NCBI RefSeq assembly: GCF_014303395.1
Contig: NZ_CP060298.1
Location: 2,294,001-2,358,000, forward strand
Direction: 5' to 3'
Length of the DNA stretch: 64,000 nt
Source: Nakamurella sp. PAMC28650
GTDB taxonomy: Bacteria > Actinomycetota > Actinomycetes > Mycobacteriales > Nakamurellaceae
A program made the translations under genes and the position numbers. Of the stretch, positions 2,002-31,584 are shown in pieces. The notes under the pieces are model-generated. The model was not told the DNA's origin. It did not search any database and saw only the letters and a list, made by a program, of their open reading frames with translations. Numbering within the stretch: the first letter of the stretch is position 1; each line of letters opens with the position of its first letter.

Positions 2002-2319
2002 CTACCGGCGGCCCAGGCGGCCGCGGCCCATGGACAACAGCATCATGCCGAGGTCCGTCCCGGACGGGCCGAGTTCGCGGAAGCGCTCGAGAATGGCCAT
2101 CTCCCGGCTGTAGACGATCCGGGGACCGCCGAGCGATTTGCGCGCGGTGCCGATCGCACCCGAGATGGCGGTTCGCCGTTGGATCAGACGCACCAGTTCG
2201 GCGTCGATCGCGTCGATCTCCAGACGGAGCACGTCGATGCCCGCCTGATCCTGCGGAACAGGTATCTCGGCGGCGTCCGCCGGGGCGGCGTCAGCGGGGG
2301 TCTGGGGTGTGCTGGTCAT
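2002..2319 (-). CDS. aroQ: Chorismate mutase, AroQ type
   Basis: Rearranges chorismate to prephenate, the committed step to Phe and Tyr. 105 aa from the ATG at 2319, which has a GAGGA Shine-Dalgarno six bases upstream; an in-frame start at 2346 has no such site. It is all-helical AroQ: LRLEIDAIDAELVRLIQRR and IVYSREMAILERFRELG align with M. tuberculosis Rv0948c, including the catalytic Arg and Lys positions and the C-terminal GRGRLG motif that contacts DAHP synthase in that species. There is no signal peptide, so it is the cytosolic form. The gene sits 41 bases behind a U-tract terminator preceded by a Tyr/Phe-rich micro-ORF, which suggests attenuation. Confidence 0.95.
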   Translation of the reverse strand: MTSTPQTPADAAPADAAEIPVPQDQAGIDVLRLEIDAIDAELVRLIQRRTAISGAIGTARKSLGGPRIVYSREMAILERFRELGPSGTDLGMMLLSMGRGRLGRR

Positions 2320-2360: not shown

Positions 2361-2391
2361 AAAAAACCCCGGGTCCGGTGGGACCTCGGGG
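2361..2391 (-). terminator. Intrinsic terminator in the aroQ leader
   Basis: Read on the minus strand, CCCCGAGGTCC (2381-2391) pairs with GGACCCGGGG (2367-2376) with one bulged A, a CACC loop (2377-2380) and six U residues (2361-2366). It lies between the leader peptide stop (2411) and the aroQ start (2319). It therefore works as an attenuator for aroQ as well as ending any readthrough from the gene at 2608-3141. Confidence 0.85.
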
Positions 2392-2410
2392 CGTCGTCGT
2401 GGCGATTGGT

Positions 2411-2467
2411 TCAGCGGCTGACGGGCACCGGGATCCGGTACCCGAAATACAACTGGCGGTAGGTCAT
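2411..2467 (-). CDS. Candidate Tyr/Phe leader peptide (18 aa)
   Basis: Eighteen codons read MTYRQLYFGYRIPVPVSR: three Tyr and one Phe within eight residues. The micro-ORF ends 20 bases before the terminator stem. Its second half contains an arm pair, CGGGTACCGG (2435-2444) with CCGGTGCCCG (2422-2431). The Tyr10 codon lies in the first arm and the stop codon is just past the second. No strong Shine-Dalgarno precedes the ATG, so a leaderless start is possible. A non-functional chance ORF cannot be excluded from one genome. Confidence 0.6.
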   Translation of the reverse strand: MTYRQLYFGYRIPVPVSR

Positions 2468-2607
2468 GACAAGAAGTAGACCACATCGACCTCGACGTCG
2501 CCCAGTGTCCGGACGCGGATCGTTCCACGGAATGGGAGGACACCTTCGGCTGTTCACCGAGTTCCCGTCGGGGCGCGGCCTTGCACCGACCCGCTCCGAA
2601 CGCGACG

Positions 2608-6601: not shown

Positions 6602-7632
6602 ACTGGGTAGCTGCTTGAGTCAAGTTGTATTTGGCCATGTCAGAGCCAGTGTGTGCCTACCCGGTCGGTGGTGTCGATTACCCCCGGACCTTTCAGGAGT
6701 TGCTGGAGTGGTTCCCGGATGACTCGTCGTGTCTGGCGTATCTGGAGCGTCTGCGGTGGCCCCAGGGGTTTGTGTGTCCGGTGTGCGGGGCGCCCGGCGG
6801 TTGGCGTACGGCGAAGGCGAAATGGATGTGCACCAGGTGTGGCCGGCAGACGTCGGTGACCGCCGGCACGATCTTCCACCGGCTCCGGACGCCGCTGTCG
6901 ACGTGGTTCGCGGCGATCTGGTTCATCACCTCGCAGAAGAACGGGATGTCCGCGCAAGGTCTGCAGCGGGTGCTGGGTTTCGGATCCTACGAAACAGCGT
7001 GGGCGTGGCTGCAGAAGCTACGCCGGGCGATGGTCCGCCCCGAGCGGGAGTTGCTCTCCGGTGTGGTGGAGTTAGATGAAGTGTTCATCGGCAACGAGTC
7101 TCGCGGCCGCGCAGGCGGCGTGAAGGACCACACCGCGGCGATGATCGCAGTGGAATCGATCCCCGGCCGCAAGCTGGGCAGGGTCCGCATCGAGCTGGCC
7201 GAGACAGCCCGATCGGTCAGCATGCTCGGCTTCGCCGACCGCGTCATCGCCAAAGGATCAACGGTCAGAACCGATGGCGCCAACTACCTGAAGAAGCTGA
7301 CCGCGGCCGGCTACGAGCACGTCGCGTTCGTCGGGACCGACAGCGCCGAGCCCGCCCACATCAACCTCCCCGGCGTCCACATGGTCGCCTCGCTGCTCAA
7401 ACGCTGGCTGACCGGCACCCTGCATTACGCGGTCTCCCAGGAGCACCTGGCCTACTACCTGGACGAATACACATTCCGGTTCAACCGACGCACCTCGAAG
7501 AGTCGCGGGCTTTTGTTCTACCGACTGTTGCAGCAGGCCGTGAACACAGACCCACACCCGCTCGCTGAACTGCGCAATCCTGTTGCAGCAGTGGACGTCC
7601 CGTTCTGAACTTTACTCAAGCAGCTACCCAGT
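6602..7632 (+). mobile_element. Complete IS1595-family insertion sequence, 1031 bp
   Basis: The ends are inverted repeats: the left 19 bases (6602-6620, ACTGGGTAGCTGCTTGAGT) are perfectly complementary to 7614-7632, extending to 24 of 25 matches. Perfect 8-bp duplications flank the element and one intact transposase fills it. Identical flanks, an intact reading frame and clean ends suggest a recent and possibly active insertion. It sits between two minus-strand genes that would otherwise be 58 bases apart. Confidence 0.95.
6637..7608 (+). CDS. IS1595-family (ISXO2-like) transposase
   Basis: Transposase of the element, 323 aa from the ATG at 6637; an in-frame TTG at 6625 is possible. The N-terminal domain has a zinc ribbon with CPVCG and CTRCG (about residues 45-75), typical of the family. 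The catalytic core shows acidic residues in VVELDEVFIG and VRTDGANY. A later block, LDEYTFRFNRR, is where the third catalytic residue is expected; I am not certain which residue serves. The stop codon lies inside the extended right inverted repeat. No frameshift or internal stop is seen. Confidence 0.94.
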   Translation: MSEPVCAYPVGGVDYPRTFQELLEWFPDDSSCLAYLERLRWPQGFVCPVCGAPGGWRTAKAKWMCTRCGRQTSVTAGTIFHRLRTPLSTWFAAIWFITSQKNGMSAQGLQRVLGFGSYETAWAWLQKLRRAMVRPERELLSGVVELDEVFIGNESRGRAGGVKDHTAAMIAVESIPGRKLGRVRIELAETARSVSMLGFADRVIAKGSTVRTDGANYLKKLTAAGYEHVAFVGTDSAEPAHINLPGVHMVASLLKRWLTGTLHYAVSQEHLAYYLDEYTFRFNRRTSKSRGLLFYRLLQQAVNTDPHPLAELRNPVAAVDVPF

Positions 7633-30667: not shown

Positions 30668-30778
30668 GGTCACGAGTTCCGACGCAATGCCCTGGCACAG
30701 TCGGACGGCAACCCTCCAGTCGCGGCGGGGTGCTCCAGGTGAGGACCGGGCGATGCCGAGCAGGCATCGCAAGCGCGG
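30668..30778 (+). ncRNA. SAM-IV type riboswitch
   Basis: The core 30668-30747 matches the actinobacterial SAM-I/SAM-IV aptamer superfamily. P1 ends are GGTC...GACC. P2 is TCCGAC with GTCGGA around a GCAATGCCC-TGGC internal part. It is followed by the invariant CGGCAACCCTCC, then P3 (ACCCTCC with GGCGGGGT) and GCTCCAGGTGAGGACC. Downstream GATGCC-GAGCA-GGCATC and GCAAGCGC look like the extra SAM-IV stem and pseudoknot segment. It should bind S-adenosylmethionine and lower expression of the downstream cysteine dioxygenase transcription unit. Confidence 0.87.
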
Positions 30779-30797
30779 CCCTCGAACCCGAGGGCCG
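30778..30797 (+). promoter_or_regulatory. Hairpin after the SAM aptamer
   Basis: GGCCCTCG and CGAGGGCC form an 8-bp perfect stem with an AACC loop immediately after the aptamer. It could be the expression platform (terminator without a U-tract) or part of the aptamer periphery. Confidence 0.5.
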
Positions 30798-30993: not shown

Positions 30994-31584
30994 ATGACCC
31001 TCACCGCAGAACCCGCCACGTCCGAAACCGTCACCACACGCGGCGTTCCGGCCGAAATGGCCCGCCCCGTCTCCGACGTCGGGGGTGAACTCACCCTGGA
31101 GAATCTCCCCGGCCGCGACCTCGACGAGGCCGAGCTGCTGCAGCTGGCCGGCTCCATCGCCGCCGATCCCGGCCGATGGCGCAGACACGTCGCCTTCTCC
31201 GACGACAAGCGCCACTACGTCAGTCTCCACCGCGACATGCACGTCGACGTCTGGGTGCTGTGCTGGACCCCGCAGAACGACACGGGCTGGCACGATCACG
31301 ATGTGTCCTCCGGCGCGGTGGCCGTCACGCAGGGCCGTCTGACCGAGCACAACCTGGCCATCGACACCCCGTCGCTGCAGACCGACATCGGCGCCGGCAC
31401 GGTCTTCAGCTTCGGGCCCGACCACATCCACCGGTTGACCGGATCGGATGCCGGCACCGTATCGATCCACACGTACTCACCGCCGCTGTGGCGGATGGGC
31501 CAGTACGCGGTGGTGGACGGGATGTTGCGGCGACGGTCCATGTCCTACGCGGACGAACTGCGCCCGCTGGACGACATGGCCTGA
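30994..31584 (+). CDS. Cysteine dioxygenase-family cupin enzyme
   Basis: Type I cysteine dioxygenase family, 196 aa; expected to oxidise L-cysteine (or a related thiol) to the sulfinic acid with Fe(II). Iron ligands are the two His in TGWHDHDVSSGAVAV (near residue 95) and the His in FGPDHIHRL (near 145). HYVSLHRDMHVDVWVLCW and SIHTYSPPLWRMGQY are family blocks. AAGGAC precedes the ATG. The upstream leader with a SAM riboswitch and a Cys-codon micro-ORF supports a role in sulfur amino acid balance. 3-Mercaptopropionate or another thiol cannot be excluded as substrate. Confidence 0.92.
   Translation: MTLTAEPATSETVTTRGVPAEMARPVSDVGGELTLENLPGRDLDEAELLQLAGSIAADPGRWRRHVAFSDDKRHYVSLHRDMHVDVWVLCWTPQNDTGWHDHDVSSGAVAVTQGRLTEHNLAIDTPSLQTDIGAGTVFSFGPDHIHRLTGSDAGTVSIHTYSPPLWRMGQYAVVDGMLRRRSMSYADELRPLDDMA

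Follow-up and report, generated by a model that had tools for sequence, protein, structure and literature searches.

A putative Phe/Tyr-responsive transcription attenuator ahead of the chorismate mutase gene aroQ in Nakamurella and related actinobacteria

The aroQ gene and its leader

The stretch of DNA analyzed here, referred to below as the window, is 64,000 nt long and belongs to a genome that groups with Nakamurella. Close to one end of the window, the minus strand carries the gene aroQ, which is preceded by a compact leader containing a promoter-like element, a short upstream ORF (uORF), two hairpins and a U tract. Specifically, the following features were assigned, with the basis of each assignment given at the end of its line:

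2475..2485 (-): extended -10-like element, TGTGG-TCTACT, with 7 nt from its last base to the uORF start; sequence
2411..2467 (-): leader ORF (uORF) of 18 codons, MTYRQLYFGYRIPVPVSR followed by a stop codon; sequence, kept in 17 Nakamurella genomes and in relatives
2444..2449 (-): putative control codons Tyr7-Phe8, with Leu6 before them; FFY or FYY in most relatives
2435..2443 (-): P1 arm 1 (element 1), GGGTACCGG, predicted to pair with 2431-2423; fold and swap test
2423..2431 (-): P1 arm 2 (element 2), CCGGTGCCC; fold and swap test
2428..2436 (-): putative antiterminator strand a, GGATCCCGG = GGAUCCCGG (end of arm 1, loop and start of arm 2); co-evolution and modelled fold
2381..2389 (-): putative antiterminator strand b, CCGAGGTCC = CCGAGGUCC (inner 5' arm of the terminator, element 3); co-evolution
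2366..2392 (-): predicted intrinsic terminator hairpin (elements 3 and 4), -20.5 kcal/mol; co-evolving arms
2361..2366 (-): U tract of six U; sequence, with a T-rich tail kept in most relatives
2002..2319 (-): aroQ, monofunctional AroQ-delta chorismate mutase of 105 aa, ATG at 2319; NCBIfam matches

The aroQ product, a relative of Rv0948c, belongs to AroQ-delta, the high-GC type of monofunctional chorismate mutase, the enzyme that commits the cell to Phe and Tyr synthesis. Its scores lie above the curated cut-offs of both TIGR01808 (84.9 bits vs 52.15) and NF005894 (106.3 bits vs 73), and its nearest solved structures are the intracellular chorismate mutases 6ygt and 2qbv, the latter being M. 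tuberculosis Rv0948c itself. The M. tuberculosis enzyme is activated, and made sensitive to Phe and Tyr, through a complex with DAHP synthase (PMC4281200). One Nakamurella genome (locus L018, genome G004) has a further AroQ-like gene with 58% identity, and no matching leader was seen upstream of it.

A sequence-only reading of this region had described an 18-codon uORF with three Tyr codons and one Phe codon, a 10-bp hairpin with its first arm over the Tyr10 codon, and a U6 terminator 41 bases before aroQ, each of which is present in the sequence. The aromatic codons of the uORF are Tyr3, Tyr7, Phe8 and Tyr10. The hairpin, P1, joins C2444 and GGGTACCGG (2443-2435) to CCGGTGCCC (2431-2423) and G2422, with the Tyr10 codon inside arm 1, and the U tract ends 41 nt before the aroQ ATG. 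The leader is also more stable than its dinucleotide shuffles (z of -2.6, with 1 of 200 shuffles equally stable). Only two U-tract terminators were found on either strand of the 64-kb window, and the one in the aroQ leader is the only one with a Tyr/Phe-rich uORF ahead of it; the other terminator-like hairpin (40038, minus strand, -13.6 kcal/mol) has no uORF ahead. A search of positions 2300-2560 against Rfam gave no match to a riboswitch, T-box or other described RNA family even at E<=1.

Elsewhere in the window, a SAM-IV riboswitch (30668-30781, plus strand, 94.4 bits) lies ahead of an ORF at 30994-31584 whose product, judged by eye, has the look of a cysteine dioxygenase-type cupin. The ORF at 6625-7608 (plus strand) resembles, again by eye, an IS1595-type transposase with a zinc-ribbon N-terminus.

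With respect to the start of transcription, a -10 element was found 6-7 nt ahead of the uORF start in 119 of 122 aligned leaders, with the consensus TGTGG-CANACT. This count is somewhat favorable in that the start codon was chosen by the best promoter match, the flanking TGTGG being outside the score. Given this spacing, transcription is predicted to start at the start codon or directly beside it, such that the uORF would be leaderless. Leaderless leader peptides have been described for several actinobacterial cases, for example in S. lividans (PMC8079986).

Conservation, control codons and co-evolving helices

The leader is found before aroQ in all 17 Nakamurella genomes and in Actinomycetospora. 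A covariance model built from 25 sequences (R1) matches 325 of the 399 sampled genomes of the same order at E<=0.01 and, among the matches listed, about 306 of 399 at E<=1e-5, and aroQ was downstream of the leader in every same-order locus examined. In the mycobacterial family, 72 of 301 genomes are matched at E<=1e-4, with VLNMQRRFFYGYRPAVPVV (followed by a stop codon) as one example of a mycobacterial uORF. M. tuberculosis itself was not seen among the sampled genomes; leader-bearing mycobacteria include species whose enzyme is 82-87% identical to an M. tuberculosis query. The chorismate mutases of one genus of this family (g7), which from these matches is taken to be Mycobacterium, are at best about 87-92% identical to the M. 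tuberculosis query. The possibility that relatives would lack the micro-ORF or its Tyr/Phe codons had been put forward as grounds for rejecting an attenuator, and the reverse was found, the uORF, codons, hairpin and terminator all being kept before aroQ.

As judged from the aligned leaders, attenuator control is nonetheless not universal, with weakened codons in some lineages and a lost or eroded terminator in others. In one Mycobacterium group (L132, L133, L228 and L235), the uORF is kept or decaying and the terminator or U tract is deleted or eroded, a pattern that suggests recent loss of the attenuator. In a Gordonia-like genus (g218; L153, L222 and L223), a single Phe control codon remains (RFPSGYR or RFLSGYR, the weakened RFPSG being that of L153 and L223) and both hairpins are retained. 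Weak matches outside the order (L213-L215, L218, L220 and L221) have the appearance of plain terminators, with no AroQ gene, and were set aside.

Directly ahead of P1 arm 1, the uORF carries a recurrent motif, Phe-Phe/Tyr-Tyr-Gly. Among 85 distinct cores, an aromatic residue is encoded in 96, 72 and 89%, respectively, at the three positions that precede the conserved Gly, with Phe-Phe-Tyr as the consensus. Synonymous codons are interchanged at these control positions (TTT with TTC, TAC with TAT), which suggests that selection acts on the identity of the tRNA and not on the RNA letters. The window has Leu at the first of these positions, and thus two aromatic control codons instead of three, and the alignment points to Tyr7-Phe8 there, and to FFY in relatives, as the sensor codons. 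This departs from the earlier proposal that the hairpin is sensed through Tyr10. That position is aromatic in only 56% of cores, with His, Thr, Ser or Asn in the remainder, and a stall at Tyr10 would place the ribosome over the antiterminator strand GGAUCCCGG; Tyr10 was therefore rejected as the sensor codon, and it is the FFY motif that is conserved instead.

The placement of the uORF relative to the hairpin is similarly constrained. The control codons abut P1 arm 1. In the window the uORF stop codon follows the first base of arm 1 by 30 nt, and in 108 of 122 leaders this distance is 27-33 nt. Taking the ribosome footprint at its generally known size for the coverage of arm 1 and element 2, a ribosome terminating at this distance is predicted to cover element 2.

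Three helices were assessed by a swap test, in which the duplex energy of true partners was compared with that of partners exchanged between sequences, using one representative per distinct arm. Such tests correct only partly for common descent, and with that qualification none of 5000 swaps was as good as the true pairing for any of the three: P1 arms (own -16.0 vs swapped -12.6 +/- 0.4 kcal/mol), terminator arms (-21.3 vs -18.5 +/- 0.3 kcal/mol) and the putative antiterminator, GGAUCCCGG (2436-2428) with CCGAGGUCC (2389-2381) (-11.5 vs -9.7 +/- 0.4). By this measure P1, the terminator and the antiterminator co-evolve, and the co-varying stems that the sequence-only reading had looked to in relatives are borne out for both P1 and the terminator. 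Matched changes in the antiterminator were seen in different families (GGACUCCGG/CCGGAGUCC, GGUCCGCGG/CCGCGGUCC and GAGUCCGG/CCGGGCUC). In the window itself 8 of its 9 positions are paired, with one C-A mismatch. Formation of the antiterminator excludes both P1, which it overlaps through strand a, and the terminator, whose 5' arm is strand b.

A model of attenuation and its alternatives

Taken together, we consider the aroQ leader to be a classical ribosome-mediated transcription attenuator governed by how much charged tRNA-Phe and tRNA-Tyr is available, with a probability of about 0.88. This retains the main point of the sequence-only reading, a Tyr/Phe-codon attenuator ahead of chorismate mutase, which is supported by conservation and co-evolution and from which we infer the regulation itself. 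In this model, RNA polymerase would start at or beside the uORF start codon, and a ribosome would engage the emerging leaderless uORF. When Phe and Tyr are ample, the ribosome would clear the Tyr-Phe codons, reach the stop codon and mask element 2, which would allow the terminator (2392-2366 and the U6 tract) to form and transcription to stop near 2361. When either Phe or Tyr is scarce, the ribosome would stall at Tyr7/Phe8 and cover P1 arm 1, upon which GGAUCCCGG (2436-2428) would pair with the 5' arm of the terminator, CCGAGGUCC (2389-2381); the resulting antiterminator would preclude the terminator, and polymerase would continue into aroQ. If the uORF were left untranslated, P1 would form and the terminator would act as the default.

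Constrained folds are consistent with this scheme. The antiterminator is predicted for a stall at Tyr7 with the terminator 3' arm absent, and the terminator is predicted for the full-length, no-ribosome and stop-codon states. In the full-length RNA the terminator is favored over the antiterminator at equilibrium, so that antitermination, and with it read-through, would have to be decided kinetically. A kinetic decision of this type is what operates in the textbook trp case.

Several alternative accounts of the leader were weighed. The pairing originally suggested for the antiterminator joins CCGGTG of arm 2 to CACCGG in the loop and 3' arm of the terminator, with arm 1 sensed via Tyr10. This 6-bp helix does exist in the window (-10.7 kcal/mol), but CACCGG occurs in only 2 of the 17 Nakamurella leaders, and the swap test gives no sign of co-evolution (own -5.43 vs swapped -5.55 kcal/mol, with 3905 of 5000 swaps as good). 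Combined with the poor conservation of Tyr10 and the position of a ribosome stalled there, these observations refute the pairing as a general mechanism, and we regard this version as having almost no chance of being correct. Another account would make the uORF product an arrest peptide, in which a nascent RFFYGYR-PVPV stalls the ribosome in the presence of some ligand or drug, and in which that stall, and not tRNA charging, sets the terminator. The core is indeed conserved as amino acids, including the PVPV that follows the control codons. The sequence GYRxPVPV, however, is for the most part fixed by the nucleotides that make up P1 and the antiterminator, and its residues shift where the pairing shifts (Y to H, N, T or S; PV to PA or SV). 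The residues before FFY are moreover few and variable, unlike those of known arrest peptides, and the downstream gene within the order is always a Phe/Tyr branch enzyme, all of which makes an arrest peptide very improbable.

An equally slim chance is assigned to a default terminator for which translation of the uORF sets only a basal level, through polarity or ribosome loading, with no sensing of amino acids. The leaders at L152, L153, L222 and L223, which have lost aromatic control codons yet retain the hairpins, are what such a device might look like. Against it stand the Phe/Tyr codons before arm 1, which almost every lineage conserves strongly, with exchanges among synonymous codons, and the co-evolving antiterminator, which would be useful only if the position of the ribosome matters. 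Attenuation governed by the charging of tRNA-Phe and tRNA-Tyr thus remains the preferred explanation.

Relation to known systems

A 2005 survey of actinobacteria including mycobacteria (Seliverstov et al.) reported no conserved RNA structures upstream of Phe/Tyr operons (PMC1262725). For chorismate mutase this conclusion is contradicted, since some three quarters or more of the genomes sampled from the order carry the leader. In the searchable literature, supplementary ORF lists and some subscription papers aside, we found no report of a leader attenuator of a monofunctional actinobacterial chorismate mutase, and an earlier unremarked listing of the aroQ uORF in M. tuberculosis is possible. 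Attenuation by an aromatic leader peptide was already known in one actinomycete, for aroF of C. glutamicum (PMC11802643), though not, in the papers searched, for chorismate mutase. As a regulatory device, the leader would add a transcriptional layer at a step where Phe and Tyr already act through the DAHP synthase complex (PMC4281200). For high-GC bacteria, it also offers a short and clean model of how leaderless translation may be coupled to intrinsic termination.

Similar arrangements were observed elsewhere in the class, outside the order. Aromatic leaders that share this layout and have a terminator occur at L210, L212 and L219 (TYFFGY, NFWRFYGY and AWSFWYG), and the leader at L217 is near-identical to that at L212; the uORFs of this set begin VQTVTYFFGY, MQRNFWRFYGYRPDTPVA and MRTAWSFWYG. 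The gene that follows at L210, L212 and L219, read from its translation, encodes a type I DAHP synthase, which parallels the aroR-aroF arrangement of C. glutamicum. Type II DAHP synthase genes in three genomes were also inspected, and upstream of them no U-tract terminator with an aromatic uORF ahead of it was seen. A leaderless-uORF attenuator responding to Phe/Tyr starvation may be ancestral at the Phe/Tyr branch across the order (Nakamurella, Actinomycetospora and mycobacteria), with related leaders before type I DAHP synthase elsewhere in the class, such that the same device would serve at either the pathway entry or the branch. We hold this broader view tentatively, at a little under even odds.

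The nearest precedent for the aroQ leader is aroR-aroF of C. glutamicum, in which a Phe-Tyr-Phe leader attenuates DAHP synthase (Neshat et al. 2014, as described in PMC11802643). Both place an actinobacterial aromatic leader peptide before a gene of the aromatic pathway, and in that description read-through of aroR-aroF rises upon ribosome stalling under Phe limitation, as we propose for aroQ. Unlike the aroQ leader, aroR-aroF controls the DAHP synthase gene aroF, concerns one genus, and is reported in the same account to be unresponsive to Tyr.

The leader ORF of E. coli pheL is led by a Shine-Dalgarno sequence and carries Phe codons. The pheL-pheA system (PMC11802643) shares with aroQ a Phe-codon leader peptide and transcription attenuation of an enzyme with chorismate mutase activity. 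However, pheA of this proteobacterium encodes a bifunctional chorismate mutase-prephenate dehydratase, whereas aroQ encodes a monofunctional AroQ-delta enzyme behind a predicted leaderless uORF with mixed Phe/Tyr codons. The actinobacterial ilvB and trp attenuators (PMC1262725, PMC13236596, PMC10272879) display the same combination of a short and often leaderless uORF, control codons, antiterminator and intrinsic terminator, but sense branched-chain amino acids or Trp. Mycobacterial Cys-rich uORFs (Canestrari et al. 2020, as described in PMC13236596 and PMC9094748) are likewise short leaderless ORFs whose codons sense an amino acid used downstream. In those accounts they act by translation attenuation without conserved terminators (PMC13236596, PMC1262725), whereas the aroQ leader has a strong predicted intrinsic terminator. 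The kind of mechanism proposed here is thus a known one, and its aroQ member, its breadth and its antiterminator are, as far as could be tested, new.
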